NCBI GenBank assembly: GCA_945910005.1
Contig: OX246749.1
Span: forward strand, 29,406,978-29,470,977
Direction: 5' to 3'
Length of the DNA stretch: 64,000 bases
Origin: Isoperla grammatica
Lineage: Eukaryota > Arthropoda > Insecta > Plecoptera > Perlodidae
In this document: positions 5,101 to 27,283 of the stretch, piece after piece
Position numbering within the stretch: position 1 is the stretch's first letter
Layout of the letters: each line of letters starts with the position of its first letter
Made by a program: the position numbers and the translations under genes
Notes under the pieces: model-generated
The model's input: the letters and a program-made list of their open reading frames with translations, nothing else
Told to the model about the DNA's origin: nothing
Database searches by the model: none

Positions 5101-5378
5101 CACATGACCCTGGCAGGACAGAGCGACACAGCCACCGAGGTGGGCGAGATGCCTCTACACTTAGATTAGATAGTTAAGTGTCGCCACATGACCCTGGCAG
5201 GACAGAGAGACACAGCCACCGAGGGGGGCGAGATGCCTCTACACTTAGATTAGATAGTTAAGTGTCGGCACACACCCTGGCAGGACAGAGAGACACAGCC
5301 ACCGAGGGGGGCGAGATGCCTCTACACTTAGATTAGATAGTTAAGTGTCGGCACACACCCTGGCAGGACAGAGCGACA

Positions 5379-5380
<2 letters not shown>
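2162..5380. repeat. 84-bp satellite array, second block
   Basis: About 38 more units of the same 84-bp repeat. The part from roughly 4137 to the insert at 5381 repeats, variant for variant (CTTAGCTTAG unit, GTCAAAATATG unit, AAGGGTCGG unit), the order seen from roughly 241 to 1402. One extra unit near 4870 shifts the offset from 3896 to 3979 bp. Confidence 0.95.
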
Positions 5381-5409
<29 letters not shown>

Positions 5410-6140
5410 ATTCACTAAATCGTTAATCTTTAACACGCCACCCGCGCTTTCGCGCATATGCGTGTCTTGGTCTCTTTACATATTACATTGTTACACTTAC
5501 TTAACATGTTTACATTTACATTTTCCAATTTACATTTATACATTTCAAAGTTACATTTATACCTTAAACAATTATATTTATAATTAACATTTAACTTTAC
5601 ATTTAATTTACATATAAACATTTAAGTTATCGATGTACTCGAGCTAGGATGCCCTAAGTTGGGCTATTTTCCTTTCTCCCAAATGCCAGGTTTCTTCTTA
5701 TGTTTACGATCCTCATCCTCTTATATCCTCTTCTTAGTTTCTTTTTCATCTTTTTACATTTTCTACCTCTTATCCCTTTTCGTTCTCTTTAATGTTTCTT
5801 TTTCGCCTTTCTTTCTTTCTTTCTTTCATCAACCTCTCTCTTCTCTCACCTGTGTTGCTTTCTTGACTACCTCCTCTCCCTATCGAGCTGAGGATATTGT
5901 TTCTTTCCTTACTGCTCTAACTCTTTTTTGAAGCCTTGCTCCTCACAAATTTTTCTTAGAGCTTAGGTTCTTCTTGTTCTTCTTGACAACTAAAAAGCCG
6001 TGCTCCTTGTTGGTTTTCCTTAGTACTTGAGTTCTTCTTCCTCTTCTTGACGACTAGAAAGCCTCGCTCTTCATTGTCTTCCTTGGTACTTGAGTTCTTC
6101 TACTTCTTCTCGACGACGACAAGTGGAAAGCCTTAACCTC
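5381..6140 (-). repeat. Poly-T-headed insert in the 84-bp satellite, copy 2
   Basis: Near-identical second copy of the insert at 1403-2161, with 28 T at 5382-5409 and the same downstream sequence. Flanking satellite variants are shared on both sides, so the copy arose by segmental duplication of the array with its insert, not by a second insertion. Confidence 0.85.
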
Positions 6141-9100
6141 GATAGTTAAGTGTTGGCACACACCCTAGCAGGACAGAGAGACACAGCCACCGAGGGGGGC
6201 GAGATGCCTCTACACTTAGATTAGATAGTCAAGTGTCGCCACATGACCCTGGCAGGACAGAGAGACACAGCCACCGAGGTGGGCGAGATGCTTCTACACT
6301 TAGATTAGATAGTTAAGTGTTGGCACACACCCTGGCAGGACAGAGAGACACAGCCACCGAGGTGGGCGAGATGCCTCTACACTTAGGTTAGATAGTTAAG
6401 TGTTGGCACACACCCTGGCAGGACAGAGAGTCACAGCCACCGAGGGGGGCGAGATGCCTCTACACTTAGATTAGATAGTTATGTGTTGGCACACACCCTG
6501 GCAGGACAGAGAGACACAGCCACCGAGGTGGGTGAGATGCCTCTACACTTAGATTAGATAGTTAAGTGTCACCACACACCCTGGCAGGACAGAGCGACAC
6601 AGCCACCGAGGGGGGCGAGATGCCTCTACACTTAGATTAGATAGTTATGTGTTGGCACACACCCTGGCAGGACAGAGAGTCACAGCCACCGAGGTGGGTG
6701 AGATGCCTCTACACTTAGATTAGATAGTTAAGTGTCACCACACACCCTGGCAGGACAGAGCGACACAGCCACCGAGGGGGGCGAGATGCCTCTACACTTA
6801 GATTAGATAGTTATGTGTTGGCACACACCCTGGCAGGACAGAGAGACACAGCCACCGAGGTGGGTGAGATGCCTCTACACTTAGATTAGATAGTTAAGTG
6901 TCACCACACACCCTGGCAGGACAGAGAGTCACAGCCACCGAGGGGGGCGAGATGCCTCTACACTTAGATTAGATAGTTATGTGTTGGCACACACCCTGGC
7001 AGGACAGAGAGTCACAGCCACCGAGGGGGGCGAGATGCCTCTACACTTAGATTAGATAGTTATGTGTTGGCACACACCCTGGCAGGACAGAGAGACACAG
7101 CCACCGAGGTGGGTGAGATGCCTCTACACTTAGATTAGATAGTTAAGTGTCGCCACATGACCCTGGCAGGACAGAGCGACACAGCCACCGAGGGGGGCGA
7201 GATGCCTCTACACTTAGATTAGATAGTTAAGTGTCGCCACATGACCCTGGCAGGACAGAGAGACACAGCCACCGAGGTGGGCGAGATGCCTCTACACTTA
7301 GATTAGATAGTTATGTGTTGGCACACACCCTGGCAGGACAGAGAGACACAGCCACCGAGGTGGGCGAGATGCCTCTACACTTAGATTAGATAGTTAAGTG
7401 TCACCACACACCCTGGCAGGACAGAGCGACACAGCCACCGAGGGGGGCGAGATGCCTCTACACTTAGATTAGATAGTTAAGTGTCGCCACATGACCCTGG
7501 CAGGACAGAGAGACACAGCCACCGAGGTGGGCGAGATGCCTCTACACTTAGATTAGATAGTTAAGTGTCGCCACATGACCCTGGCAGGACAGAGAGACAC
7601 AGCCACCGAGGTGGGGAGATGGCTCTACACTTAGATTAGATAGTTAAGTGTCGCCACATGACCCTGGCAGGACAGAGAGACACAGCCACCGAGGTGGGGA
7701 GATGCCTCTACACTTAGATTAGATAGTTAAGTGTCGCCACATGACCCTGGCAGGACAGAGAGACACAGCCACCGAGGTGGGCGAGATGCCTCTACACTTA
7801 GATTAGATAGTTAAGTGTCGCCTGATGACCCTGGCAGGACAGAGAGACACAGCCACCGAGGGGGGCGAGATGCTTCTACACTTAGATTAGATAGTTAAGT
7901 GTCGCCACATGACCCTGGCAGGACAGAGCGACACAGCCACCGAGGTAGGCGACATGCCTCTACACTTAGATTAGGTAGTTAAGTGTCGGCACACACCCTG
8001 GCAGGACAGAGAGACACAGCCACCGAGGGGGGCGAGATGCCTCTACACTTAGATTAGATAGTTAAGTGTTGGCACATGACCCTGGCAGGACAGAGAGACA
8101 CAGCTACCGAGGTGGGCGAGATGCCTCTACACTTAGATTAGATAGTTGAGTGTCGCCACATGACCCTGGCAGGACAGAGAGACACAGCCACCGAGGTGGG
8201 CGAGATGCCTCTACACTTAGATTAGATAGTTAAGTGTCGCCACATGACCCTGGCAGGACAGAGCGACACAGCCACCGAGGTAGGCGAGATGCCTCTACAC
8301 TTAGATTAGATAGTTATGTGTCGCCACATGACCCTGGCAGGACCGAGAGACACAGCCAACGAGGTGGGCGAGATGCCTCTACACTTAGATTAGATAGTTA
8401 AGTGTCGCCACACACCCTGGCAGGACAGAGAGACACAGCCACCGAGGAGGGCGAGATGCCTCTACACTTAGATTAGGTAGTTGAGTGTCGCCACACACCT
8501 TGGCAGGACAGAGAGACACAGCCACCGAGGTGGGCGAGATGCTCTACACTTAGATTAGATAGTTAAGTGTCGGATCATGACCCTGGCAGGACATAGAGAC
8601 ACAGCCACCGAGGGGGGCGAGATGCCTCTACACTTAGATTAGATAGTTAAGTGTTGGCACACACCCTGGCAGGACAGAGAGACACAGCCACCGAGGTGGG
8701 CGAGATGCCTCTACACTTAGATTAGATAGTTAAGTGTCGCCACATGACCCTGGCAGGACAGAGAGACACAGCCACCGAGGGGGGCGAGATGCCTCTACAC
8801 TTAGATTAGATAGTTAAGTGTCGGCACACACCCTGGCAGGACAGAGAGACACAGCCACCGAGGTGGGCGAGATGCCTCTACACTTAGATTAGATAGTTAA
8901 GTGTCGGCACATGACCCTGGCAGGACAGAGAGACACAGCCACCGAGGTGGGCGAGATGCCCCTACACTTAGATTAGATAGTTGAGTGTTGGCACACACCC
9001 TGGCAGGACAGAGAGACACAGCCACCGAGGTGGGCGAGATGCCTCTACACTTAGATTAGATAGTTAAGTGTCGGCACACGACCCTGGCAGGACAGAGCGA

Positions 9101-9486
9101 CACAGCCACCGAGGTGGGCGAGATGCCTCTACACTTAGATTAGATAGTTAAGTGTCGGCACACGACCCTGGCAGGACAGAGCGACACAGCCACCGAGGGG
9201 GGCGAGATGCCTCTACACTTAGATTAGATAGTAAAGTGTCGGCACACACCCTGGCAGGACAGAGAGACACAGCCACCGAGGGGGGCGAGATGCCTCTACA
9301 CTTAGATTAGATAGTTAAGTGTCGCCACATGACCCTGGCAGGACAGAGAGACACAGCCACCGAGGTAGGCGAGATGCCTCTACACTTAGATTAGATAGTT
9401 AAGTGTCGGCACATGACCCTGGCAGGACAGAGCGACACAGCCACCGAGGTGGGCGAGATGCCTCTACACTTAGATTAGATAGTTAA
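6141..9486. repeat. 84-bp satellite array, third block
   Basis: About 40 units. Between about 6340 and 7320 a sub-pattern alternates GTTATGTGTTGGCACAC, GTTAAGTGTCACCACAC and GAGAGTCACAG variants, showing local higher-order amplification. The array ends at GATAGTTAA, 9486. Confidence 0.95.
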
Positions 9487-10898: not shown

Positions 10899-11142
10899 TC
10901 ACCGTCTCTTGTTTGGACGCAGGTACGCAACAGTCGGACGAGGCCGTGCGCGAGAGGTGAAGTAGCGGAGGATCGTCGGGCGTGCCTTATCCGTCCCTTC
11001 CGCTAGAGAGGAACGTGGAGTCACCGTCTCTTGTTTGGTGGCAGGTACGCAACAGTCGGACGAGGCCGTGCGCGAGAGGTGAAGTAGCGGAGGATCGTCG
11101 GGCGTGCCTTATCCGTCCCCTCCGCTAGAGAGGAACGTGGAG
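10899..11142. repeat. 122-bp repeat array, left part (2 units)
   Basis: Two full 122-bp units starting TCACCGTCTCTTGTTTGG and ending GAACGTGGAG. The array continues in the same orientation and phase at 24518, so it was split by the element at 11143-24517. Confidence 0.95.
11137..11142. other. 6-bp target-site duplication (left copy)
   Basis: GTGGAG immediately precedes the element end AGTAGGG. The same GTGGAG follows the other end at 24518-24523. In an uninterrupted unit GTGGAG occurs once, directly before TCACCG, so these six bases are duplicated exactly. Six-bp duplications are typical of Polinton/Maverick integrases. Confidence 0.85.
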
Positions 11143-11176
11143 AGTAGGGAGAAAATGCCGGTTCTGGCGCAGGACA

Positions 11177-11189
11177 TGACCTTTGACCT
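11177..11189 (-). promoter_or_regulatory. Nuclear-receptor-like DR1 motif in the terminal repeat (left)
   Basis: On the minus strand, two AGGTCA half-sites separated by one A, the classic DR1 arrangement, with a third half-site (GGGTCA) directly upstream. The mirror copy is at 24471-24483. A motif match only; function is not shown. Confidence 0.3.
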
Positions 11190-11738
11190 TGACCCCGCCG
11201 CCACTGCCTGCCGCTCGTCACCGCGAGGCGCTTGATTAGTCACTGTGTGACCTTGAACAGATTGCAACTCAGGATGACTCCGCCCACCGCTCACTGGTTG
11301 AAGACGCGTTCGAGTTTATCTAACAGCTGAGTAGAGTATTAAAAAAAAAAAAAAAATGACTCATCCGCAACAATCACATAACATTGTTGATGACGCAGGT
11401 TCGTAACCTACCTACTGCAATCATTGTATATAGTTCAAACTTACTATGCATAGATCTCCGCAGTAAACAAATGAATATTCTAAGTATTTAATGAAATATA
11501 AAAAGTTTTAAAATATAGAAAAAATCAATAATAATTAGGGGTTAGATTATCATCGAAGTTGAGATGAGGTTAAGGGTACGATTAAAAAGAAATAAGATTA
11601 TCAAAGAGTTCAATGTACTACTTTATTTATATCACCAACGTGCTACGCCATATCGAAAAGATTAGAAGTGCTATTTGCTACCATTTAAATGTTCGGATAT
11701 GATCAACTTCTTTTCATCGCGGAGAGCTTAGCGAAAGC

Positions 11739-11741
<3 letters not shown>

Positions 11742-11804
<63 letters not shown>
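11742..11804. repeat. (GA)n microsatellite, left arm
   Basis: About 31 GA dinucleotides, mirrored exactly by (CT)n at 23855-23917. The mirror copies have equal length, which is notable for a normally unstable sequence. Confidence 0.95.
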
Positions 11805-11808
<4 letters not shown>

Positions 11809-12234
11809 GTTCCACCCACAGCTCTGCCGAGGGATCGTGAACCCTACCTTCTTAATAGACTCAAAAGAGCTATATCAGACTACAAGACTATTGTTTGTGT
11901 GTTCGTGTGATTGTGTATATACCATATAACGCATTTTTTTAAATAAACCAATCACTTTTCGTTTCCTTGCTATTTTTAATATCCTGTTTAAACTAACAGT
12001 ATGTCAGTGACAATATATTACCAATGTTATTTCATGTAAACCACTCGAACCGAGGATATTACGCATCCCGTTGTTCTTTGATTTACACATTAAAATGTAC
12101 ATTTTTTTGCATGTATACAAATCAACAAAAATAGACTCACCTAGTATTTGTTTTTAAATATATTTCAAATTTTTTAAAATTTTATAACAATGAAAGTTCT
12201 TAGTTGTTAATACCATGATGCAACTAATTGTCTT

Positions 12235-12288
12235 CAAAGTATAAATAGTGACACCATCATAGTTGCTATGATGCTTATCATCATGTGG
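12235..12288 (-). pseudogene. Relic of a second polymerase C-terminus (left arm)
   Basis: Mirror copy of the relic at 23371-23424; see that entry. It lies about 660 bp beyond the stop codon of the intact gene, on the same strand. Confidence 0.55.
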
Positions 12289-12782
12289 TATGCTTGCGTC
12301 TAGAGACACGTTTTTTTTTGTGACGTTGATTTTAGATACTGTACTGGTGAACTGAAATCAGTGAAAGTTTTGAAAACACTACAAAATGCTAATTTCTTTT
12401 TAAAATATATAATCTCACACACCTGTTTCCAAAATCGAGCCAGGAAGTGGTTGGCCCTCCAATCTCTGAGGCATAGAATCAATTAATAATAAAATAGAAA
12501 AATTCATGCCAAATGTAAAATCAATCAATGCTAAAACACATATCTCTACTTATGTCATATCAAAATTGTTAATTTATTTTATTTTACTTCATACTTGCAT
12601 CAACTTAAATAGAATCGGTTTTTAACTAGCTTGTTATTTTGTCTATTTGAGGGTTACAGTGGCACATAGATTTATCGTGAATGTTATCTATAGTACATTA
12701 AGTTATTCAAGTTCTATATAGGATATGTTGAGATGGAAAGGATTTAAATAAGAGAGAAGTACACAAACGTAGATGATATTCT

Positions 12783-12788
12783 TTTATT
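12783..12788 (-). terminator. Polyadenylation signal of left polymerase gene
   Basis: AATAAA on the minus strand about 160 bp past the stop codon of the left polymerase gene; mirrored at 22871-22876. Confidence 0.5.
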
Positions 12789-12945
12789 ATAATGTAATGC
12801 AGATTTAATGTTACACATAAAAAGCCAAACAAATAGTATATGTAAACCAGATGGTGAATCACACTAGAGCCAGATATTCCAGTCTCTAATTCGAACTTTA
12901 GTGCGAATCACCTCCAGATATATTTACATTACATATACTTTACAA

Positions 12946-15900
12946 TCACATTTTTTTAATTTTATAATGTCCATAAGCAAATGTAGTAACACCATCAGAG
13001 TTGATGTAACGTTTATCATCGTATGGAGAGAGGGTCTGCTTCCTTTGTTTGATTGTATATAGTTCATGATTTATACTTCTAATAGATACCATACCAGCAC
13101 TGTACATTTTTCGGAATAATAAACACTTTCTATAGTCATCGTGTCGAATATGATGTTTTAAAGTTGCTCTTACAATACCCTTACCCACTTTTTTATTATT
13201 ATCAGAGCCATTGGCTAAAATAGAATACATCTTAGCTCTCAAACCAACAAACTCTCGAACAGGCTCACCTTCCATTTCATCCTTGAATTTTCCCAGAACT
13301 TTCATGTTTTTATTACTAAAAAGTGTATGATCTTTAGGGAAATTAGACGTATCAAACAAATGTTCATCTGACTTCATGTCCTCGTAAAGATCTTTTGTTT
13401 CAATTTCGTAACACAGAGAGTCAGTATCAGTGAAAAGAAGCTGTGCTCGATTGCCATACTTATTTTTTGTGTAATTGTAGTGAAAGTCATACATTACAGC
13501 TTTACTTAAATCTAAAATACTAAAGCCTGCATATATTGGACGGTTTAAAATAAGAGTTTTCTTCTTACTATGCACAGCTACTAAGTTATTTTGAAACATT
13601 TTAAATCCTTCAAAGGCGGGAGAAGCCACAAGTTTTAACATTCTTCTTTTATTGTTCACCAGTGTAACATTGATTCGTTTACGCATATTTTCTATTAATT
13701 TGCCAAACAGACTGTTGACCATCAATTTGTATAGATTACGCTCGAAGGTGTTGTGAGCATTCTGACGTTTATTTGTGTTGAAATCTACATATGGCTTCAA
13801 CCAAGGGCTTTGGCTAAATTCAAGCACTTTATGAATTTTTAAGAGCTTCATACCTAATGACAGGTACTGCTTCAAATTTCTGTAGTGTATAATGTAGTTC
13901 TTTTTATTGTTTAAGTTTGGAGTCAACTTAGTGACTTTAGTATTCAACCTAATATCTAAATCATCTACAAGATTTTCACTGTATGGCGATATCATATTCT
14001 TCGAAATAGTAATTTTTTCTGGAGCTAGAGGATAATCGTTATGTATGTCATGTAACTCTACAGGATATTCCAAATCTACTTCTAATATGTAGCCGGTGTT
14101 TGAGTCGTTAGGTACATTCTCAAATGTAATATTTTCAATCTCACCTTTAGCCAACCATTTGAATCCACTTATGGGGAGATAATCAGACATGGCCACACCG
14201 TATAGATTGTTACAATCCCAATAAGTAATAAATTTGGATGGTTTATCAGAATCAAACCCCTCAACATATTTATTATTAGCTTCCGAGAATCGTTTAGATA
14301 TTGTAGATACACCCCCTCTTATTCCATTTTCAATAAACAAGTACATATTCGGGTCTGTAAACAATTCTAATTGAACACCAGTCATCTTCAAACAAGCATG
14401 GAATGTGAGACCAGAGCTGGTGTAATTGTGCGCTGGATCTAATCCGTAATTATCTAAACATAGTAATCTAAAATTTTCAAAAACATCAGCTAAAAGACAT
14501 ACATCAGTTTTTACGTATAAATCCTGATATTCACCAAGGTTTTTTATGTCGAAAGCTTTCCAAACATCGACTGCGTGTTTATAGTCAATATCACTTAAAT
14601 CTTCACCTGTAAGAACATTGTGAAAGAACTTTTGTGCTGGTAGATTAGTTTCAAGAAATTTTTCTTCAGAATCAAGATAATCATATGGGAACACTCCCTT
14701 ACGTAAAAGAAGATGAATTTTATCTTGATGAAAACATTTTTTAAGTGTTACAAACCGGTCAATTCCGTAACCAACAAGATTATTTACCAATGAATCTAGT
14801 GAATCGTTTAAAAACTGGTACGAGTCAATGAAACGAAGATTTGATACAGAAAAAGAGATGTACTTTTCAACGGTGTTGGGGATGACTGAAATTCTTCTGT
14901 TTTTAATTTTACCAAGTTTTTGCATTATTAGATGCGAGTCATATCCTCGTAGGTTATGAAAAACAACTGGTATATATTTCGCTTGTGTGTAAGCTAGATT
15001 ACATTTATTGTGGACGGCACCTCGATAAATACCATCTAAATGGTTGTGATCTCTTACTCGATCCAAGCCTAAAGCTTTGTTGCAAATATGACAAATAACA
15101 GCTTCTTTAAATGATTTTTTGTCATGATCTGTCATAACTATAGGGACTACCTTGGACATAATTTTACATAAGTTATCCTCTTCACTTAACATTGCATCTA
15201 AAAACTTGTCGACTGCTTGTGAACCCCGATAAACTACAGGTTGTTTTAAGGAGTTACCTTTAGAATCAACAATAACATAGGAAAATCCCGATGGTTCATG
15301 ATTTGTGACTTGAGTTGTGTGTGATATATCACTTGTTTGGTCGCAACCTAAGATCTTTCTAGAAATACACTCAAAATCAGCATATATAATGAATGGTACT
15401 TTCAATGAGAATTGAACATCTTTGAATTTTAAAATGTTGTCTTCTTCGGTGGGTAATTGAATTTTTTGTGGATCGTGTTGACTACATAATGTATGATGTT
15501 CCTCTCTTAGCTTTTGAGTAGTAAATCTATGTAGGCACAGATAACAGTAAAATGGTCTGTGTTCATGCTTTGTTAAAGAGTGTAAGAGTCGGTTGAAATC
15601 CTTAATGAGAAAGTAGTGTGAGTTGTTTTCATTCGATATGTACAATAAATTTACATGCTCTTCACAATGAACTTTTGTTATACGAACAGGAAATATGTCT
15701 TTATCATACCCAAAAACGTTTATAGAAATATTATTGTTTTTCTCAAAAATATCAAGTTTTGATATCTTTACTGGATAATCAATACCACTCATGTTAAGTT
15801 CAGATTCCAGATGTTCATATTTACTCACACGTTGCGAATCTTTAGTTTGTGGATAGAGATACGCGAGAACTGACCATAGAAAGCATTTATTGTCGCGATA

Positions 15901-16716
15901 ATTTTGTATGTTGATTATCGATTTAGATAATTTCAATTTTGATGGTAGAGGTATGTAGCTACTCCCTGCTAGAGGCGCGTATTGTACAACTTTTAATTCT
16001 AAATAGTAAACATGTTCTAGACCCCAATTACTACCATCCTTTTGAAAAGTACTTGATAAAGCATTAATTTTTTGAAATGCATCACTAAATTGATCATCAA
16101 AATCGTTTTCCTCAAGGAGTGTATAACACACGCTTCTAAAACAGGGAGACGTAAATTGAGGTTCACCTTCCATCTCCCGTGAAAACCGTACAAACATTGA
16201 TATGTACCATTTAACACCTTTAAACGTACTAAGATTTTTCAAAACCAACTCTTTGACCTTATCATTGTGGTTGTTTAAAAAAAGAAGCAGATCTCTCTCA
16301 TACATAGTGTTTTTAAACTTGTATGATTTGGCGACTCCATCGAAAGATTCATCACAGGAAACGTTATCAGCACATGGTCCGTTGTTAAAGCTGTCATCAT
16401 CAACTTCCATAGGTGTCACTTCCGGATTGGCGGTTTTGATTGCAGATTCGAGCTTATGTTGATGGACGTGTTTCAAATAATCATCTTTAATTGCGAACTC
16501 CTTTGTGCATAAAGCACATTGAAACAACATGGAGTGATCTCTCTTGACGTGATTTTTCAGGTTATCTTCACGTGTAAAAGAAGCAGGACACAATTTACAC
16601 TTGAAGGTTGTGGTGAGATTGTGGGCGACTCTCTTGTGACGTAGCAGTGCTCTTTTCCATTTGAAAGCTTCGTCACACACCTCACATACGTATGCACGAT
16701 TCCTGGTAGATTCCAT
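12946..16716 (-). CDS. Protein-primed family B DNA polymerase (left copy)
   Basis: 1,256 codons, one exon, apparently identical in protein sequence to the right copy at 18943-22713, where the domains are described in full. It carries N-terminal C2H2 fingers, a DFE exonuclease motif, an embedded zinc-binding module, and polymerase motifs DCNNLYG, KLMVNSLFGK and TDTDSL. It is transcribed outward from the palindrome centre, so its upstream region (16717-17811) is shared in mirror image with the other copy. All motifs needed for exonuclease and polymerase activity are intact and no stop interrupts the frame. By family knowledge it would copy a linear genome using a terminal protein as primer. No separate terminal-protein gene is visible, and in Polintons that function may lie in the polymerase's own N-terminal region. 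Confidence 0.93.
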   Translation of the reverse strand: MESTRNRAYVCEVCDEAFKWKRALLRHKRVAHNLTTTFKCKLCPASFTREDNLKNHVKRDHSMLFQCALCTKEFAIKDDYLKHVHQHKLESAIKTANPEVTPMEVDDDSFNNGPCADNVSCDESFDGVAKSYKFKNTMYERDLLLFLNNHNDKVKELVLKNLSTFKGVKWYISMFVRFSREMEGEPQFTSPCFRSVCYTLLEENDFDDQFSDAFQKINALSSTFQKDGSNWGLEHVYYLELKVVQYAPLAGSSYIPLPSKLKLSKSIINIQNYRDNKCFLWSVLAYLYPQTKDSQRVSKYEHLESELNMSGIDYPVKISKLDIFEKNNNISINVFGYDKDIFPVRITKVHCEEHVNLLYISNENNSHYFLIKDFNRLLHSLTKHEHRPFYCYLCLHRFTTQKLREEHHTLCSQHDPQKIQLPTEEDNILKFKDVQFSLKVPFIIYADFECISRKILGCDQTSDISHTTQVTNHEPSGFSYVIVDSKGNSLKQPVVYRGSQAVDKFLDAMLSEEDNLCKIMSKVVPIVMTDHDKKSFKEAVICHICNKALGLDRVRDHNHLDGIYRGAVHNKCNLAYTQAKYIPVVFHNLRGYDSHLIMQKLGKIKNRRISVIPNTVEKYISFSVSNLRFIDSYQFLNDSLDSLVNNLVGYGIDRFVTLKKCFHQDKIHLLLRKGVFPYDYLDSEEKFLETNLPAQKFFHNVLTGEDLSDIDYKHAVDVWKAFDIKNLGEYQDLYVKTDVCLLADVFENFRLLCLDNYGLDPAHNYTSSGLTFHACLKMTGVQLELFTDPNMYLFIENGIRGGVSTISKRFSEANNKYVEGFDSDKPSKFITYWDCNNLYGVAMSDYLPISGFKWLAKGEIENITFENVPNDSNTGYILEVDLEYPVELHDIHNDYPLAPEKITISKNMISPYSENLVDDLDIRLNTKVTKLTPNLNNKKNYIIHYRNLKQYLSLGMKLLKIHKVLEFSQSPWLKPYVDFNTNKRQNAHNTFERNLYKLMVNSLFGKLIENMRKRINVTLVNNKRRMLKLVASPAFEGFKMFQNNLVAVHSKKKTLILNRPIYAGFSILDLSKAVMYDFHYNYTKNKYGNRAQLLFTDTDSLCYEIETKDLYEDMKSDEHLFDTSNFPKDHTLFSNKNMKVLGKFKDEMEGEPVREFVGLRAKMYSILANGSDNNKKVGKGIVRATLKHHIRHDDYRKCLLFRKMYSAGMVSIRSINHELYTIKQRKQTLSPYDDKRYINSDGVTTFAYGHYKIKKM

Positions 16717-16733
16717 CTCGTTGTACTTTCAAA

Positions 16734-16823
16734 CTATATTAACAAGAGAGATGGATTAAGTTTTTGTTTAAGGTTTACAATTATCGCTAAACAATATGAC
16801 ATATAAAAATTAACTATATTTAC
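16734..16823 (-). other. Possible 5' UTR intron, left polymerase gene
   Basis: Mirror of the candidate intron at 18836-18925, with donor CAAG|GTAAAT and acceptor TTAATATAG|TTTG. Inference from splice-site consensus only. Confidence 0.35.
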
Positions 16824-17811
16824 CTTGATTGGTAATAGAATGGTGTTTTCAGCTTGATAATGTATCGGCCGTAATGGGTGCAGAAGTGATCAGTTTTAGA
16901 TATTCACTCTGTATTCATAAAAAAGAGGAACGAGTATGGATAAACGTAAACATATGTCCCGTCTTGATTGTTTATCTTGAAATGTTTACAGTATGATAGT
17001 ACAAAAATAGTCAACTAAAGAGGTCTCTTGTAGTTAACCCTTCAATAGATTGTTAATGACTGAGCCGATCCTCAGTTTGATGGCCTATTTAAATTAAATG
17101 AGCAACAGAGCGCGGACCGCGTAGAAAACGATTAAAAAGAAACGACGCGCTCCAAGCGGACAAAGCAGGAAGCTCACCGCTAAGATGAGGTTCTTACGAT
17201 TGTTGAGTTAAACATAGGAACTTTACAATCTTCCAAATTAAATAAAGAATTAACTGTTAAATAAAATAGCATTACGATCAATATCCTATATTAAATTGTA
17301 AAGAAATCTAGACGATAGTGATAGTGTGAGCTGGAGTGGTTATCTAATAACTAAACACTTGCTCCACGCAAGGCTATCAACTTCCTGCGTGTGTATACAT
17401 ACCAGTAGTAGAGTAGGTTAGTATTACTTATTATTCACTTCATGGGTATTAGGATGCATACTCGCGAAGATAATATTATGGCTGTGAGCTGACAGAACTC
17501 GATGCGTAGTCAACACTTGAGTGAAGCGTATTATTTCATTTTTGTCAATTTTTTGTTTTTTTTTTTACAATAATTAAACCATTTGTAAATACTATTTGTA
17601 AACATTGTTAATTTAAATGCATGGTTATGATTAACTGCTTTCCATAACGTAGAACGCGTCTGTAAGTAAGGTCCCCTCACACAAGTGTGCGTGTGTGAGA
17701 GAGAGAGAGAGACAGACAGACAGAGAGAGCGACTAACATCTGATGCGACAAGATTGAACTTGCATTACTTCCTCCAAACGCACGTGTGCTCAAGGTCAAC
17801 AACACCACATG

Positions 17812-17847
17812 TTATGTCTGGTGTTATCTAGTCTATGAATTTCGCTG
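17812..17847. other. 36-bp asymmetric centre of the palindrome
   Basis: The only part of the element present once. It is bordered on both sides by the self-complementary tetramer CATG (17808-17811 and 17848-17851), after which perfect inverted symmetry begins. TCAAGGTCA half-sites flank it at 17790-17798 and, inverted, 17861-17869. Confidence 0.95.
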
Positions 17848-18835
17848 CATGTGGTGTTGTTGACCTTGAGCACACGTGCGTTTGGAGGAAGTAATGCAAG
17901 TTCAATCTTGTCGCATCAGATGTTAGTCGCTCTCTCTGTCTGTCTGTCTCTCTCTCTCTCTCACACACGCACACTTGTGTGAGGGGACCTTACTTACAGA
18001 CGCGTTCTACGTTATGGAAAGCAGTTAATCATAACCATGCATTTAAATTAACAATGTTTACAAATAGTATTTACAAATGGTTTAATTATTGTAAAAAAAA
18101 AAACAAAAAATTGACAAAAATGAAATAATACGCTTCACTCAAGTGTTGACTACGCATCGAGTTCTGTCAGCTCACAGCCATAATATTATCTTCGCGAGTA
18201 TGCATCCTAATACCCATGAAGTGAATAATAAGTAATACTAACCTACTCTACTACTGGTATGTATACACACGCAGGAAGTTGATAGCCTTGCGTGGAGCAA
18301 GTGTTTAGTTATTAGATAACCACTCCAGCTCACACTATCACTATCGTCTAGATTTCTTTACAATTTAATATAGGATATTGATCGTAATGCTATTTTATTT
18401 AACAGTTAATTCTTTATTTAATTTGGAAGATTGTAAAGTTCCTATGTTTAACTCAACAATCGTAAGAACCTCATCTTAGCGGTGAGCTTCCTGCTTTGTC
18501 CGCTTGGAGCGCGTCGTTTCTTTTTAATCGTTTTCTACGCGGTCCGCGCTCTGTTGCTCATTTAATTTAAATAGGCCATCAAACTGAGGATCGGCTCAGT
18601 CATTAACAATCTATTGAAGGGTTAACTACAAGAGACCTCTTTAGTTGACTATTTTTGTACTATCATACTGTAAACATTTCAAGATAAACAATCAAGACGG
18701 GACATATGTTTACGTTTATCCATACTCGTTCCTCTTTTTTATGAATACAGAGTGAATATCTAAAACTGATCACTTCTGCACCCATTACGGCCGATACATT
18801 ATCAAGCTGAAAACACCATTCTATTACCAATCAAG

Positions 18836-18925
18836 GTAAATATAGTTAATTTTTATATGTCATATTGTTTAGCGATAATTGTAAACCTTAAACAAAAACT
18901 TAATCCATCTCTCTTGTTAATATAG
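18836..18925 (+). other. Possible 5' UTR intron, right polymerase gene
   Basis: CAAG|GTAAAT at 18836 and a pyrimidine-containing acceptor ending TTAATATAG at 18925 would remove 90 bp and join 17 bp of leader to the ATG at 18943. Plausible by consensus; RNA evidence is needed. Confidence 0.35.
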
Positions 18926-18942
18926 TTTGAAAGTACAACGAG

Positions 18943-21900
18943 ATGGAATCTACCAGGAATCGTGCATACGTATGTGAGGTGTGTGACGAAGCTTTCAAAT
19001 GGAAAAGAGCACTGCTACGTCACAAGAGAGTCGCCCACAATCTCACCACAACCTTCAAGTGTAAATTGTGTCCTGCTTCTTTTACACGTGAAGATAACCT
19101 GAAAAATCACGTCAAGAGAGATCACTCCATGTTGTTTCAATGTGCTTTATGCACAAAGGAGTTCGCAATTAAAGATGATTATTTGAAACACGTCCATCAA
19201 CATAAGCTCGAATCTGCAATCAAAACCGCCAATCCGGAAGTGACACCTATGGAAGTTGATGATGACAGCTTTAACAACGGACCATGTGCTGATAACGTTT
19301 CCTGTGATGAATCTTTCGATGGAGTCGCCAAATCATACAAGTTTAAAAACACTATGTATGAGAGAGATCTGCTTCTTTTTTTAAACAACCACAATGATAA
19401 GGTCAAAGAGTTGGTTTTGAAAAATCTTAGTACGTTTAAAGGTGTTAAATGGTACATATCAATGTTTGTACGGTTTTCACGGGAGATGGAAGGTGAACCT
19501 CAATTTACGTCTCCCTGTTTTAGAAGCGTGTGTTATACACTCCTTGAGGAAAACGATTTTGATGATCAATTTAGTGATGCATTTCAAAAAATTAATGCTT
19601 TATCAAGTACTTTTCAAAAGGATGGTAGTAATTGGGGTCTAGAACATGTTTACTATTTAGAATTAAAAGTTGTACAATACGCGCCTCTAGCAGGGAGTAG
19701 CTACATACCTCTACCATCAAAATTGAAATTATCTAAATCGATAATCAACATACAAAATTATCGCGACAATAAATGCTTTCTATGGTCAGTTCTCGCGTAT
19801 CTCTATCCACAAACTAAAGATTCGCAACGTGTGAGTAAATATGAACATCTGGAATCTGAACTTAACATGAGTGGTATTGATTATCCAGTAAAGATATCAA
19901 AACTTGATATTTTTGAGAAAAACAATAATATTTCTATAAACGTTTTTGGGTATGATAAAGACATATTTCCTGTTCGTATAACAAAAGTTCATTGTGAAGA
20001 GCATGTAAATTTATTGTACATATCGAATGAAAACAACTCACACTACTTTCTCATTAAGGATTTCAACCGACTCTTACACTCTTTAACAAAGCATGAACAC
20101 AGACCATTTTACTGTTATCTGTGCCTACATAGATTTACTACTCAAAAGCTAAGAGAGGAACATCATACATTATGTAGTCAACACGATCCACAAAAAATTC
20201 AATTACCCACCGAAGAAGACAACATTTTAAAATTCAAAGATGTTCAATTCTCATTGAAAGTACCATTCATTATATATGCTGATTTTGAGTGTATTTCTAG
20301 AAAGATCTTAGGTTGCGACCAAACAAGTGATATATCACACACAACTCAAGTCACAAATCATGAACCATCGGGATTTTCCTATGTTATTGTTGATTCTAAA
20401 GGTAACTCCTTAAAACAACCTGTAGTTTATCGGGGTTCACAAGCAGTCGACAAGTTTTTAGATGCAATGTTAAGTGAAGAGGATAACTTATGTAAAATTA
20501 TGTCCAAGGTAGTCCCTATAGTTATGACAGATCATGACAAAAAATCATTTAAAGAAGCTGTTATTTGTCATATTTGCAACAAAGCTTTAGGCTTGGATCG
20601 AGTAAGAGATCACAACCATTTAGATGGTATTTATCGAGGTGCCGTCCACAATAAATGTAATCTAGCTTACACACAAGCGAAATATATACCAGTTGTTTTT
20701 CATAACCTACGAGGATATGACTCGCATCTAATAATGCAAAAACTTGGTAAAATTAAAAACAGAAGAATTTCAGTCATCCCCAACACCGTTGAAAAGTACA
20801 TCTCTTTTTCTGTATCAAATCTTCGTTTCATTGACTCGTACCAGTTTTTAAACGATTCACTAGATTCATTGGTAAATAATCTTGTTGGTTACGGAATTGA
20901 CCGGTTTGTAACACTTAAAAAATGTTTTCATCAAGATAAAATTCATCTTCTTTTACGTAAGGGAGTGTTCCCATATGATTATCTTGATTCTGAAGAAAAA
21001 TTTCTTGAAACTAATCTACCAGCACAAAAGTTCTTTCACAATGTTCTTACAGGTGAAGATTTAAGTGATATTGACTATAAACACGCAGTCGATGTTTGGA
21101 AAGCTTTCGACATAAAAAACCTTGGTGAATATCAGGATTTATACGTAAAAACTGATGTATGTCTTTTAGCTGATGTTTTTGAAAATTTTAGATTACTATG
21201 TTTAGATAATTACGGATTAGATCCAGCGCACAATTACACCAGCTCTGGTCTCACATTCCATGCTTGTTTGAAGATGACTGGTGTTCAATTAGAATTGTTT
21301 ACAGACCCGAATATGTACTTGTTTATTGAAAATGGAATAAGAGGGGGTGTATCTACAATATCTAAACGATTCTCGGAAGCTAATAATAAATATGTTGAGG
21401 GGTTTGATTCTGATAAACCATCCAAATTTATTACTTATTGGGATTGTAACAATCTATACGGTGTGGCCATGTCTGATTATCTCCCCATAAGTGGATTCAA
21501 ATGGTTGGCTAAAGGTGAGATTGAAAATATTACATTTGAGAATGTACCTAACGACTCAAACACCGGCTACATATTAGAAGTAGATTTGGAATATCCTGTA
21601 GAGTTACATGACATACATAACGATTATCCTCTAGCTCCAGAAAAAATTACTATTTCGAAGAATATGATATCGCCATACAGTGAAAATCTTGTAGATGATT
21701 TAGATATTAGGTTGAATACTAAAGTCACTAAGTTGACTCCAAACTTAAACAATAAAAAGAACTACATTATACACTACAGAAATTTGAAGCAGTACCTGTC
21801 ATTAGGTATGAAGCTCTTAAAAATTCATAAAGTGCTTGAATTTAGCCAAAGCCCTTGGTTGAAGCCATATGTAGATTTCAACACAAATAAACGTCAGAAT

Positions 21901-22713
21901 GCTCACAACACCTTCGAGCGTAATCTATACAAATTGATGGTCAACAGTCTGTTTGGCAAATTAATAGAAAATATGCGTAAACGAATCAATGTTACACTGG
22001 TGAACAATAAAAGAAGAATGTTAAAACTTGTGGCTTCTCCCGCCTTTGAAGGATTTAAAATGTTTCAAAATAACTTAGTAGCTGTGCATAGTAAGAAGAA
22101 AACTCTTATTTTAAACCGTCCAATATATGCAGGCTTTAGTATTTTAGATTTAAGTAAAGCTGTAATGTATGACTTTCACTACAATTACACAAAAAATAAG
22201 TATGGCAATCGAGCACAGCTTCTTTTCACTGATACTGACTCTCTGTGTTACGAAATTGAAACAAAAGATCTTTACGAGGACATGAAGTCAGATGAACATT
22301 TGTTTGATACGTCTAATTTCCCTAAAGATCATACACTTTTTAGTAATAAAAACATGAAAGTTCTGGGAAAATTCAAGGATGAAATGGAAGGTGAGCCTGT
22401 TCGAGAGTTTGTTGGTTTGAGAGCTAAGATGTATTCTATTTTAGCCAATGGCTCTGATAATAATAAAAAAGTGGGTAAGGGTATTGTAAGAGCAACTTTA
22501 AAACATCATATTCGACACGATGACTATAGAAAGTGTTTATTATTCCGAAAAATGTACAGTGCTGGTATGGTATCTATTAGAAGTATAAATCATGAACTAT
22601 ATACAATCAAACAAAGGAAGCAGACCCTCTCTCCATACGATGATAAACGTTACATCAACTCTGATGGTGTTACTACATTTGCTTATGGACATTATAAAAT
22701 TAAAAAAATGTGA
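18943..22713 (+). CDS. Protein-primed family B DNA polymerase (right copy)
   Basis: 1,256 codons; the ATG has G at +4 and precedes the first zinc finger directly. Three C2H2 fingers lie at about 11-32 (C11, C14, H27, H32), 40-61 and 67-87. A conserved FLWSVLAYLYP segment is at 279-289 and a further CxxC...HH...C finger at 391-411. ExoI is YADFE (D447, E449). A CxxC-RDHNH-RGAVHNKC module (542-572) resembles the zinc fold of endonuclease VII/HNH proteins. ExoII is FHNLRGYDSH (586-595) and ExoIII YVKTD (734-738). An RGGVSTISKRF stretch is at 800-810. Polymerase motif A is DCNNLYG (D834), motif B KLMVNSLFGK (997-1006), and motif C TDTDS (D1097, D1099). A FVGLRAKMYS stretch (1156-1165) precedes a DDKRY...DGV...AYGHY tail. 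This is the pPolB type found in Polintons, adintovirus-like elements and adenoviruses. The frame is fully intact and nothing catalytic is missing, so the enzyme could be functional. Confidence 0.95.
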   Translation: MESTRNRAYVCEVCDEAFKWKRALLRHKRVAHNLTTTFKCKLCPASFTREDNLKNHVKRDHSMLFQCALCTKEFAIKDDYLKHVHQHKLESAIKTANPEVTPMEVDDDSFNNGPCADNVSCDESFDGVAKSYKFKNTMYERDLLLFLNNHNDKVKELVLKNLSTFKGVKWYISMFVRFSREMEGEPQFTSPCFRSVCYTLLEENDFDDQFSDAFQKINALSSTFQKDGSNWGLEHVYYLELKVVQYAPLAGSSYIPLPSKLKLSKSIINIQNYRDNKCFLWSVLAYLYPQTKDSQRVSKYEHLESELNMSGIDYPVKISKLDIFEKNNNISINVFGYDKDIFPVRITKVHCEEHVNLLYISNENNSHYFLIKDFNRLLHSLTKHEHRPFYCYLCLHRFTTQKLREEHHTLCSQHDPQKIQLPTEEDNILKFKDVQFSLKVPFIIYADFECISRKILGCDQTSDISHTTQVTNHEPSGFSYVIVDSKGNSLKQPVVYRGSQAVDKFLDAMLSEEDNLCKIMSKVVPIVMTDHDKKSFKEAVICHICNKALGLDRVRDHNHLDGIYRGAVHNKCNLAYTQAKYIPVVFHNLRGYDSHLIMQKLGKIKNRRISVIPNTVEKYISFSVSNLRFIDSYQFLNDSLDSLVNNLVGYGIDRFVTLKKCFHQDKIHLLLRKGVFPYDYLDSEEKFLETNLPAQKFFHNVLTGEDLSDIDYKHAVDVWKAFDIKNLGEYQDLYVKTDVCLLADVFENFRLLCLDNYGLDPAHNYTSSGLTFHACLKMTGVQLELFTDPNMYLFIENGIRGGVSTISKRFSEANNKYVEGFDSDKPSKFITYWDCNNLYGVAMSDYLPISGFKWLAKGEIENITFENVPNDSNTGYILEVDLEYPVELHDIHNDYPLAPEKITISKNMISPYSENLVDDLDIRLNTKVTKLTPNLNNKKNYIIHYRNLKQYLSLGMKLLKIHKVLEFSQSPWLKPYVDFNTNKRQNAHNTFERNLYKLMVNSLFGKLIENMRKRINVTLVNNKRRMLKLVASPAFEGFKMFQNNLVAVHSKKKTLILNRPIYAGFSILDLSKAVMYDFHYNYTKNKYGNRAQLLFTDTDSLCYEIETKDLYEDMKSDEHLFDTSNFPKDHTLFSNKNMKVLGKFKDEMEGEPVREFVGLRAKMYSILANGSDNNKKVGKGIVRATLKHHIRHDDYRKCLLFRKMYSAGMVSIRSINHELYTIKQRKQTLSPYDDKRYINSDGVTTFAYGHYKIKKM

Positions 22714-22870
22714 TTGTAAAGTATATGTAATGTAAATATATCTGGAGGTGATTCGCACTAAAGTTCGAATTAGAGACTGGAATATCTGGCTCTAGTGTGA
22801 TTCACCATCTGGTTTACATATACTATTTGTTTGGCTTTTTATGTGTAACATTAAATCTGCATTACATTAT

Positions 22871-22876
22871 AATAAA
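22871..22876 (+). terminator. Polyadenylation signal of right polymerase gene
   Basis: AATAAA about 158 bp after the stop codon in an AT-rich 3' region; mirrored at 12783-12788. Confidence 0.5.
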
Positions 22877-23370
22877 AGAATATCATCTACGTTTGTGTAC
22901 TTCTCTCTTATTTAAATCCTTTCCATCTCAACATATCCTATATAGAACTTGAATAACTTAATGTACTATAGATAACATTCACGATAAATCTATGTGCCAC
23001 TGTAACCCTCAAATAGACAAAATAACAAGCTAGTTAAAAACCGATTCTATTTAAGTTGATGCAAGTATGAAGTAAAATAAAATAAATTAACAATTTTGAT
23101 ATGACATAAGTAGAGATATGTGTTTTAGCATTGATTGATTTTACATTTGGCATGAATTTTTCTATTTTATTATTAATTGATTCTATGCCTCAGAGATTGG
23201 AGGGCCAACCACTTCCTGGCTCGATTTTGGAAACAGGTGTGTGAGATTATATATTTTAAAAAGAAATTAGCATTTTGTAGTGTTTTCAAAACTTTCACTG
23301 ATTTCAGTTCACCAGTACAGTATCTAAAATCAACGTCACAAAAAAAAACGTGTCTCTAGACGCAAGCATA

Positions 23371-23424
23371 CCACATGATGATAAGCATCATAGCAACTAT
23401 GATGGTGTCACTATTTATACTTTG
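23371..23424 (+). pseudogene. Relic of a second polymerase C-terminus (right arm)
   Basis: The plus-strand translation from 23371 reads PHDDKHHSNYDGVTIY, clearly related to the last residues of the intact polymerase just upstream (PYDDKRYINSDGVTTF, 1231-1246). Codon alignment is gap-free for 16 codons and about three quarters of bases agree. Upstream the resemblance fades near an A-run, where the frame changes. It is a diverged paralogue fragment, not a copy of the adjacent gene, so an ancestor of this arm carried two related polymerase 3' ends or suffered a tandem duplication. Confidence 0.6.
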
Positions 23425-23850
23425 AAGACAATTAGTTGCATCATGGTATTAACAACTAAGAACTTTCATTGTTATAAAATTTTAAAAAATTTGAAATATA
23501 TTTAAAAACAAATACTAGGTGAGTCTATTTTTGTTGATTTGTATACATGCAAAAAAATGTACATTTTAATGTGTAAATCAAAGAACAACGGGATGCGTAA
23601 TATCCTCGGTTCGAGTGGTTTACATGAAATAACATTGGTAATATATTGTCACTGACATACTGTTAGTTTAAACAGGATATTAAAAATAGCAAGGAAACGA
23701 AAAGTGATTGGTTTATTTAAAAAAATGCGTTATATGGTATATACACAATCACACGAACACACAAACAATAGTCTTGTAGTCTGATATAGCTCTTTTGAGT
23801 CTATTAAGAAGGTAGGGTTCACGATCCCTCGGCAGAGCTGTGGGTGGAAC

Positions 23851-23854
<4 letters not shown>

Positions 23855-23917
<63 letters not shown>
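23855..23917. repeat. (CT)n microsatellite, right arm
   Basis: Mirror of the (GA)n at 11742-11804 with the same length. Confidence 0.95.
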
Positions 23918-23920
<3 letters not shown>

Positions 23921-24470
23921 GCTTTCGCTAAGCTCTCCGCGATGAAAAGAAGTTGATCATATCCGAACATTTAAATGGTAGCAAATAGCACTTCTAATCT
24001 TTTCGATATGGCGTAGCACGTTGGTGATATAAATAAAGTAGTACATTGAACTCTTTGATAATCTTATTTCTTTTTAATCGTACCCTTAACCTCATCTCAA
24101 CTTCGATGATAATCTAACCCCTAATTATTATTGATTTTTTCTATATTTTAAAAACTTTTTATATTTCATTAAATACTTAGAATATTCATTTGTTTACTGC
24201 GGAGATCTATGCATAGTAAGTTTGAACTATATACAATGATTGCAGTAGGTAGGTTACGAACCTGCGTCATCAACAATGTTATGTGATTGTTGCGGATGAG
24301 TCATTTTTTTTTTTTTTTTAATACTCTACTCAGCTGTTAGATAAACTCGAACGCGTCTTCAACCAGTGAGCGGTGGGCGGAGTCATCCTGAGTTGCAATC
24401 TGTTCAAGGTCACACAGTGACTAATCAAGCGCCTCGCGGTGACGAGCGGCAGGCAGTGGCGGCGGGGTCA

Positions 24471-24483
24471 AGGTCAAAGGTCA
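24471..24483 (+). promoter_or_regulatory. Nuclear-receptor-like DR1 motif in the terminal repeat (right)
   Basis: AGGTCA-A-AGGTCA with GGGTCA directly upstream. A single extended half-site, TCAAGGTCA, lies at 24404-24412. Mirror of 11177-11189. A motif match only. Confidence 0.3.
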
Positions 24484-24517
24484 TGTCCTGCGCCAGAACC
24501 GGCATTTTCTCCCTACT

Positions 24518-24523
24518 GTGGAG
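24518..24523. other. 6-bp target-site duplication (right copy)
   Basis: GTGGAG directly after the element end CCCTACT and directly before a repeat unit starting TCACCG; pairs with 11137-11142. Confidence 0.85.
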
Positions 24524-26474
24524 TCACCGTCTCTTGTTTGGTGGCAGGTACGCAACAGTCGGACGAGGCCGTGCGTGAGAGGTGAAGTAGCGGAGGATCG
24601 TCGGGCGTGCCTTATCCGTCCCCTCCGCTAGAGAGGAACGTGGAGTCACCGTCTCTTGTTTGGTGGCAGGTACGCAACAGTCGGACGAGGCCGTGCGCGA
24701 GAGGTGAAGTAGCGGAGGATCGTCGGGCGTGCCTTATCCCTCCCCCCCGCTAGAGAGGAACGTGGAGTCACCGTCTCTTGTTTGGTGGCAGGTACGCAAC
24801 AGTGGGACGAGGCCGTGCGTGAGAGGTGAAGTAGCGAAGGATCGTCGGGCGTGCCTTATCCCTCCCCTCCGCTAGAGAGGAACGTGGAGTCACCGTCTCT
24901 TGTTTGGTGGCAGGTACGCAACAGTGGGACGAGGCCGTGCGTGAGAGGTGAAGTAGCGAAGGATCGTCGGGCGTGCCTTATCCCTCCCCTCCGCTAGAGA
25001 GGAACGTGGAGTCACCGTCTCTTGTTTGGTGGCAGGTACGCAACAGTCGGACGAGGCCGTGCGTGAGAGGTGAAGTAGCGGAGGATCGTCGGGCGTGCCT
25101 TATCCCTCCCCCCCGCTAGAGAGGAACGTGGAGTCACCGTCTCTTGTTTGGTGGCAGGTACGCAACAGTGGGACGAGGCCGTGCGCGAGAGGTGAAGTAG
25201 CGGAGGATCGTCGGGCGTGCCTTATCCCTCCCCTCCGCTATAGAGGAACGTGAAGTCACCGTCTCTTGTTTGGTGGCAGGTACGCAACAGTGGGACGAGG
25301 CCGTGCGTGAGAGGTGAAGTAGCGGAGGATCGTCGGGCGTGCCTTATCCCTCCCCTCCGCTAGAGAGGAACGTGGAGTCACCGTCTCTTGTTTGGTGGCA
25401 GGTACGCAACAGTCGGACGAGGCCGTGCGTGAGAGGTGAAGTAGCGGAGGATCGTCGGGCGTGCCTTATCCCTCCCCTCCGCTAGAGAGGAACGTGGAGT
25501 CACCGTCTCTTGTTTGGTGGCAGGTACGCAACAGTGGGACGAGGCCGTGCGTGAGAGGTGAAGTAGCGGAGGATCGTCGGGCGTGCCTTATCCCTCCCCT
25601 CCGCTAGAGAGGAACGTGGAGTCACCGTCTCTTGTTTGGTGGCAGGTACGCAACAGTCGGACGAGGCCGTGCGTGAGAGGTGAAGTAGCGGAGGATCGTC
25701 GGGCGTGCCTTATCCGTCCCCTCCGCTAGAGAGGAACGTGGAGTCACCGTCTCTTGTTTGGTCGCAGGTACGCAACAGTCGGACGAGGCCGTGCGTGAGA
25801 GGTGAAGTAGCGGAGGATCGTCGGGCGTGCCTTATCCCTCCCCTCCGCTAGAGAGGAACGTGGAGTCACCGTCTCTTGTTTGGTGGCAGGTACGCAACAG
25901 TCGGACGAGGCCGTGCGTGAGAGGTGAAGTAGCGGAGGATCGTCGGGCATGCCTTATCCGTCCCCTCCGCTAGAGAGGAACGTGGAGTCACCGTCTCTTG
26001 TTTGGTGGCAGGTACGCAACAGTCGGACGAGGCCGTGCGTGAGAGGTGAAGTAGCGGAGGATCGTCGGGCGTGCCTTATCCCTCCCCTCCGCTAGAGAGG
26101 AACGTGGAGTCACCGTCTCTTGTTTGGTGGCAGGTACGCAACAGTCGGACGAGGCCGTGCGTGAGAGGTGAAGTAGCGGAGGATCGTCGGGCGTGCCTTA
26201 TCCGTCCCCTCCGCTAGAGAGGAACGTGGAGTCACCATCTCTTGTTTGGTCGCAGGTACGCAACAGTCGGACGAGGCCGTGCGTGAGAGGTGAAGTAGCG
26301 GAGGATCGTCGGGCGTGCCTTATCTGTCCCTCCGCTAGAGAGGAACGTGGAGTCACCGTCTCTTGTTTGGTGGCAGGTACGCAACAGTCGGACGAGGCCG
26401 TGCGTGAGAGGTGAAGTAGCGGAGGATCGTCGGGCGTGCCTTATCCGTCCCCTTCACTACCGGGGAACGTGGAG
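24524..26474. repeat. 122-bp repeat array, right part (16 units)
   Basis: Sixteen units of the repeat seen at 10899-11142, same orientation and phase. Units differ by recurring single-base variants (CAGTCGG/CAGTGGG, TGCGCGAG/TGCGTGAG, ATCCGTCC/ATCCCTCC). The last unit is diverged (CTTCACTACCGGGG). Stop-free readings of 60-80 codons inside are by-products of the repeat. Confidence 0.95.
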
Positions 26475-26636
26475 TCATCGTCGCTCGCTGCGTACACCGT
26501 CTGACATATATACATATACAATATCAAGACATAGACATGTTACCGAGATACGTAGCTCGCTTCCGTCTAGATTTACAATAATGTGAATATGTTAGAGTGC
26601 GTAACGGCTTTGTAAATTTAGCGATGGGGGCGGATA
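26475..26636. other. Unique DNA, no gene seen
   Basis: No feature supported. Confidence 0.4.
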
Positions 26637-26884: not shown

Positions 26885-27283
26885 TCCACCCCCACTGCTT
26901 AATAGGTTTACAATAAGTGGTTCTCTTTTGAGACGTCGACAATGTATTATTGTCGGAACGTCGGGCGTGTTGCATGTTTGGAAAGTATTATTTTCGGCGT
27001 TTGATGGACTATTTTACTATACCTCTCTGAATGGTCATGAAAATACGAGTGTACCTTCGTGTTTGAGCCATAGTAATAAGACGTCGGGCGATGTATAACG
27101 CTCGGGAACACAACAAGCTTAAAATGTAAACAAACGAGTATAATCCATCTCGCAACTAAAATAGCCCATCGAACGTGCATTCAAGTTACACATATCTCGG
27201 TAACAAAGTGTGTCTATGGTAGAGGTATCTTTTTCATCAACATCTCTTCGGGTTAGACTTGAGCTCCCTTGACTTATCACACA
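26885..27283. other. Unique DNA, no gene seen
   Basis: Two degenerate repeats share a CGTCGGGCG motif (26959 and 27083). No gene can be supported. Confidence 0.4.

Follow-up and report, generated by a model that had tools for sequence, protein, structure and literature searches.

The 64,000-nucleotide stretch of Isoperla grammatica contig OX246749.1 analyzed here (the window) carries a 13.4-kb element that is one inverted repeat from end to end. We propose, with a probability of roughly three in four (0.77), that this element belongs to a long-lived, multi-copy lineage of palindromes that descend from Polintons, encode only a polymerase and are replicated by protein priming, presumably through a hairpin stage and with a borrowed integrase. 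Self-comparison and inspection of the sequence confirmed the basic description given in an earlier note on this DNA, namely arms of about 6.67 kb, a 36-bp spacer, AG...CT ends and a 6-bp target-site duplication (TSD). The layout of the element and its insertion site is as follows:

10899-11142, no strand: 122-bp tandem array left of the insertion, 2 units
11137-11142, no strand: left TSD, GTGGAG (from the sequence)
11143-17811, + strand: left palindrome arm, 6669 bp, starting AGTAGGGAG (from self-comparison)
12946-16716, - strand: polymerase gene, left copy, 1256 amino acids (aa), facing outward (open frame)
17812-17847, no strand: asymmetric 36-bp centre (loop), which recurs at other loci of the genome
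17848-24517, - strand: right palindrome arm, 6670 bp, the reverse complement of the left arm except for one 1-bp indel
18943-22713, + strand: polymerase gene, right copy, 1256 aa, facing outward (open frame)
24518-24523, no strand: right TSD, GTGGAG (from the sequence)
24518-26482, no strand: 122-bp tandem array right of the insertion, 16.1 units, in the same orientation as the left array

The only mismatch between the arms is a run of four versus five Ts at arm position 368, and the tips read AGTAGGG...CCCTACT (left end, AGTAGGGAGAAAATGCC...; right end, ...GGCATTTTCTCCCTACT). The repeats cover all but 36 bp of the element, which is thus not built of short terminal inverted repeats around a single polymerase gene. 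When the flanks are joined without the element they form one 122-bp array of 18.1 copies, with the period kept at 240 of 244 positions around the join; because the array is unbroken once the element is left out, the element was inserted into it. The G+C content of the arm is 34%, compared with 43-49% in the remaining window. Each arm holds one polymerase frame of 1256 codons, intact in both, and the two genes face away from the centre, an orientation absent from the earlier note. The only other stop-to-stop frame of at least 100 aa in the left arm is 100 aa long and antisense within the polymerase, and neither the open frames nor a frame comparison revealed a second gene in the window arms, so that the description of the element as polymerase-only, with two mirror copies, holds. 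A mini-hairpin in the window spacer does not exceed chance expectation, given 371 of 5000 random 36-mers from the arm and 505 of 5000 shuffles.

In the 874-Mb host genome, the outermost 858 bp of the arm gave at least 46 matches from the 40 candidates scored among 63, many of them plus- and minus-strand neighbours separated by about 9-14 kb. Copies with two arms and the centre of the window type lie at C17:8424920 (C17a), C1:123265424 (C1), C14:4567651 (C14), C9:11986889 (C9), C5:35123913 (C5) and C17:39644387 (C17d). The inner part of one arm is gone in C17:30780000 (C17c) and C1:96681308, the centre is gone in C17:8873367 (C17e), and C15:25592581 (C15) folds further in than the window. Perfect 6-bp TSDs were present in 9 of the 13 copies examined (the window and 8 of 12 others): GTGGAG in the window, TACATC in C17a, CACTCT in C1, GTGGCC in C14, ATTACT in C9, GACGTG in C15, TACGAC in C17e, and CACGCG and GCCACT in a distant family. 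In C17e the TSD adjoins an extra AGT at the left tip (AGTAGTAGGG), as jumping-back initiation would leave. The search for copies with the same ends, which the earlier note had proposed, thus yielded siblings that share the centre and have TSDs of their own, indicating that the palindrome itself is the inserting unit. The earlier claim that the palindrome existed before integration therefore stands on these siblings; the TSD abutting both ends, from which it had been argued, does not suffice for this inference, as gap repair starting at the opposite end could leave the same picture. No far end turned up where one was expected for C1:81376392, C9:45196623, C15:5136921 or the copy with its centre at C1:96664559. 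The tips at C81:3544-4396 and C17:30790313 share their first 24 flank bases and a short tandem repeat at equal distance, and C81 is probably a duplicate contig.

The two arms of a copy evolve in concert. Over whole arms they are at most 0.075% apart in seven of eight whole copies (window 0, C17a 0.075, C1 0.062, C14 0.03, C9 0.061, C15 0.074 and C5 0.015%; C17d 1.5%), while differences between copies range from 0.06 to 4.39%; a suspected duplicate beside C9 is 0.03% from it. In a tree of the outer pieces the two arms of each copy group together, except in C17c, C17d and the near-identical copies (window/C17a and C9/C14). Separate evolution of the arms since the ancestor of the window and C1, which share a centre, predicts about 2.4% per copy, and 0 and 0.06% were seen. 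The polymerase is, moreover, under purifying selection between separated lineages: among nine frames, one arm each (36 pairs), the ratio of nonsynonymous to synonymous divergence (dN/dS) was 0.115-0.2 in pairs with dS above 0.03, C17c left out. In the window, C1, C9 and C15 each arm carries a full-length frame, in C17a, C14 and C17d one arm does, and in C5 the two arms are open only up to residue 1198; all sibling frames of at least 250 aa are polymerase.

The similarity of the arms might also come from chromosomal gene conversion after insertion of a mobile palindrome, with no hairpin stage in replication. Long inverted repeats can convert, and the arms of C17d are mosaics of lineages. However, one-arm lesions persist in several copies, so conversion does not erase everything, and the window arms are identical save one indel; we consider this explanation possible, though doubtful.

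The family of the window shows three types of centre, one of 36 nucleotides (nt; the window type), one of about 29 nt (C16:28407336 and C66:7369) and none at all (C15). In the C15 arm, the site of the window-type fold coincides with a 10-bp stem whose loop measures exactly 36 nt; three such stems, counting loops from 20 to 45 nt, occur in the 7 kb of that arm, and C66 carries the same stem with one mismatch. These centres fit repeated fold-back at short inverted repeats, in an order of events that we infer, and a fold-back origin of the palindrome, as the earlier note had it, is probable. Tandem units of about 182-190 bp that include the centre sequence were observed inside the arms of one sub-lineage (C16:36251400-36252600 and C66:6600-8140).

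The same layout was found far beyond the window family. A genome search with a piece of the polymerase (54 of 411 candidates scored) placed 34 of the 54 scored matches in 17 mirror pairs, always minus then plus. Seven of these were checked (the window and the pairs at C1:83.6, C14:10.64, C17:17.06, C1:53.9, C8:39.97 and C20:23.6 Mb), and within each pair 0-3 of about 2000 nt differ. In DNA, the C1:83.6 Mb pair, one polymerase of which is without its N-terminal part, is 17.5% from the window; those at C14:10.64, C17:17.06, C1:53.9 and C8:39.97 Mb are 35-36% from it and 0.4-0.8% from one another; and that at C20:23.6 Mb is 33-35% from all others. Three further families, 17.5-36% apart, thus repeat the outward-facing mirror layout, and at C14:10630928-10647335 arms of 8.2 kb at 99.4% identity enclose a loop of 28 nt, as read from the sequence.

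These loci bear on whether the elements are instead Polintons with very long, polymerase-bearing terminal repeats and other genes now or once in the middle. Terminal repeats do vary in vertebrate Mavericks, from 46 to 1447 bp (PMC8097293), centres were read for part of the copies, and frames of 113-142 aa lie outside the polymerase in distant families. Nevertheless, the centres read measure 36, 0 and 28 bp (window, C15 and C14:10.64 Mb), and at C8:39.97 Mb, where one arm has extra DNA, the central 7.6 kb consists of polymerase pieces, low-complexity frames and one 107-aa frame (no Pfam screen), making such an arrangement improbable.

We also find it quite improbable that single-arm elements were rendered palindromic by missed adapters or misjoins, although errors of this kind seem to occur. 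At C5:35137195, 505 bp of the left flank reappear after the palindrome, inverted and at 100% identity, and the C5 flank TCTGTG is seen again at a third tip, which lies 25.6 kb away from the first; at C9:12000121-12008400 the right flank is repeated (99.8%, at C9:12007915) with a partial element. Both arrangements are likely assembly fold-back or duplication errors at palindromes, and an N gap adjoins C17:39657952. A fold-back read would, however, give inverted flanks, whereas unlike flanks accompany the perfect TSDs in the 9 of 13 copies; private changes of single arms, such as the polymerase frame broken in one arm only of C14:4567651 and C17:8424920, and one-sided deletions at the centre in three copies likewise speak against an artefact.

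The earlier note had seen in the window a singular defective product, which a full Polinton would have generated by snap-back and which was caught once integrated. The short-loop centre and the arms, in which no other Polinton gene was found, would suit this account, but we now regard it as very unlikely: the same centre recurs at other loci with other TSDs, the polymerase is conserved by purifying selection, families differing by about a third of their DNA have the same layout, and siblings were found at unrelated sites; in a comparison of 20 flank pieces from 8 other copies, the sole mutual matches were C9/C9 and C5/C5. Formation of the palindrome after integration, by inward copying from the other terminal repeat at a break in an ordinary Polinton, would leave tips and TSD intact but predicts a different centre at each locus, and is hardly credible given the same 36-bp centre at unrelated sites.

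The right-hand polymerase (mirrored in the left copy) could be divided into the following regions:

18964-19206, + strand: C2H2 zinc fingers at the N terminus, approximate limits
19294-19686, + strand: terminal-protein-like domain, residues ~118-248 (structural matches; comparison in PMC11071308)
19717-20079, + strand: OTU-protease-like domain, residues ~259-379 (structural matches)
20200-22710, + strand: exonuclease and polymerase domain with the phi29-polymerase fold

The top structural matches of the terminal-protein-like domain were the C-terminal domains of Y-family DNA polymerases, and an HNH/endonuclease-VII-like insert lies at residues ~540-575 inside the exonuclease/polymerase region. 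The order of a terminal-protein domain followed by a vOTU domain is that of Polinton/Maverick polymerases. The PF03175 profile did not detect the window protein, and zinc-finger proteins were among the best 60 of 152 matches in a PDB sequence search. Relatives in IMG/VR were limited to two distant contigs, and a scan of prokaryote genomes gave ten contigs (L001-L010) inside bacterial metagenome-assembled genomes, where they are probably contamination. Among ten frames scanned from L004, L006, L008 and L009, L006 carries an integrase core as well as a Pox_A32-like ATPase, L004 has an adenovirus IVa2-like ATPase, and L008 has an adenain-like protease together with an ATPase match below threshold, which ties the polymerase family to Polinton-like genomes. 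Compared with the arm by tblastn, the frames of L001-L012 gave only polymerase matches besides a weak 40-aa match (E 0.066).

The window arms encode no retroviral-type integrase, packaging ATPase, protease or capsid gene that we could find, and by gene content the element is not a Polinton; its polymerase, its tips and its TSD make descent from one most likely, in agreement with the relationship proposed earlier. Like Polintons and Mavericks it has a protein-primed polymerase (pPolB) with terminal-protein and OTU-like domains (PMC11071308), AG/AGT tips, 6-bp TSDs and a length within the range of 12.7-24.6 kb given for intact vertebrate Mavericks (PMC8097293). The repeated AG/AGT tips fit the exact (AGT)2 or (AG)3 vertebrate motif imperfectly. 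Unlike them, the element has two polymerases, inverted repeats of 6.67 kb as opposed to 46-1447 bp, and outward-facing genes, whereas the modules of vertebrate Mavericks generally face the centre, those of the cane toad pointing apart (PMC8097293).

Using the Polinton-type integrase of L006 as query (84 of 1862 candidates scored), we found at least 84 integrase matches in the genome, about 74 of which fall within open frames 350-382 aa long. Integrase-like frames are therefore common in this genome, but retroelement integrases would answer this query too, so the matches name no donor, and the view of the earlier note that the element needs only integrase in trans is a conjecture. In the stretch C1:96672024-96673817 (L018), which adjoins the palindrome tip C1:96672023, one frame is open right up to the tip and is followed by a frame with a chromodomain, which overlaps an integrase match 1.1 kb past the tip, as though a palindrome had inserted into an element carrying an integrase. 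A similar integrase match occupies a roughly mirror position at C1:96701551. A 178-aa frame beside this tip has one homologue and no Pfam domain. PF00770 matched none of 12 host-genome candidates, but the controls were equally silent, and this negative carries little weight. Two integrase frames at C20:23419473 and C20:23430042 stand in mirror order 11 kb apart, and some integrase elements may be palindromic too.

In the mechanism that we propose, one chain with a terminal-protein domain, an OTU protease and a phi29-type polymerase would start at the tips by protein priming and displace a strand, and this strand would fold back as a hairpin whose loop measures about 30-36 nt; synthesis continuing past the loop would then rebuild the full palindrome. 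Since one arm would template the other in each cycle, the two arms would stay alike. A retroviral-type integrase from another element would insert the linear product, and new fold-backs at short inverted repeats may have shifted the centre during the history of the family.

Several observations weigh against this proposal. No integrase donor, extrachromosomal form or hairpin was seen in the assembly, which holds integrated copies only; chromosomal gene conversion could likewise keep the arms alike; and the order of the centre types is inferred. Two loci show assembly trouble, the right flank of C5:35123913 being an inverted copy of the left, C17d abuts Ns, and C17c and C1:96681308 have no TSD. 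The outer arms are unlike in 2 of 11 copies (C17d, 74/3391; C17c, 63/3332), and 20 of the 54 scored polymerase matches are without a scored mirror partner, 2 of these being partnered in the DNA read. Finally, dN/dS was 0.15-0.40 in pairs with the damaged C17c, where the high values are 0.25-0.40, and 0.06-0.58 in close pairs, which have few changes each and some of which give 0.27-0.58.

Protein-primed polymerase systems are known to yield hairpin or mirror-image molecules. The pGKL1 derivatives are hairpin or palindromic forms of protein-primed linear plasmids, and a deletion derivative of the kalilo linear plasmid has reportedly been found; these are free deletion derivatives, whereas the present element belongs to an integrated, many-copy lineage under selection. 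Symmetric defective adenovirus genomes likewise arise when one end of a protein-primed genome is copied by snap-back, but they depend on the parent virus and are not heritable transposons. Foldback-type transposons (Galileo, Tetris) share the long terminal inverted repeats; Galileo differs in having internally repetitive repeats and a transposase and no polymerase, while the window arm compared with itself (low-complexity filter on) gave only matches of at most 37 bp. Full-text searches of the open-access literature returned no palindromic Polinton among the matches listed.

It seems evenly balanced whether these elements represent an ancient class of palindromic self-synthesizing transposons that are palindromes from end to end, form hairpins and encode only a self-priming polymerase, with one arm renewed from the other in every cycle and integrase-bearing Polintons exploited as by a satellite. 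Large perfect palindromes are thought to be unstable, yet a mobile element seems to be inherited in just this form here. The lineage would mark a path along which virus-like Polintons were reduced to a single gene, with possible built-in upkeep of that gene, arm renewing arm. If the arms start identical, their divergence could date each insertion, as with long terminal repeats, and whether snap-back replication can found a lasting lineage becomes directly testable.

Elsewhere in the window, positions 1-9486 consist of 84-bp tandem arrays broken by two similar segments of about 0.75 kb, some 3979 bp apart, perhaps as a higher-order repeat. A 72-bp array at 27119-30872 is open in several frames on both strands and gives rise to long spurious open reading frames. 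At 51215-54267 (- strand), two long frames resemble a broken hAT-type transposase and may represent one.
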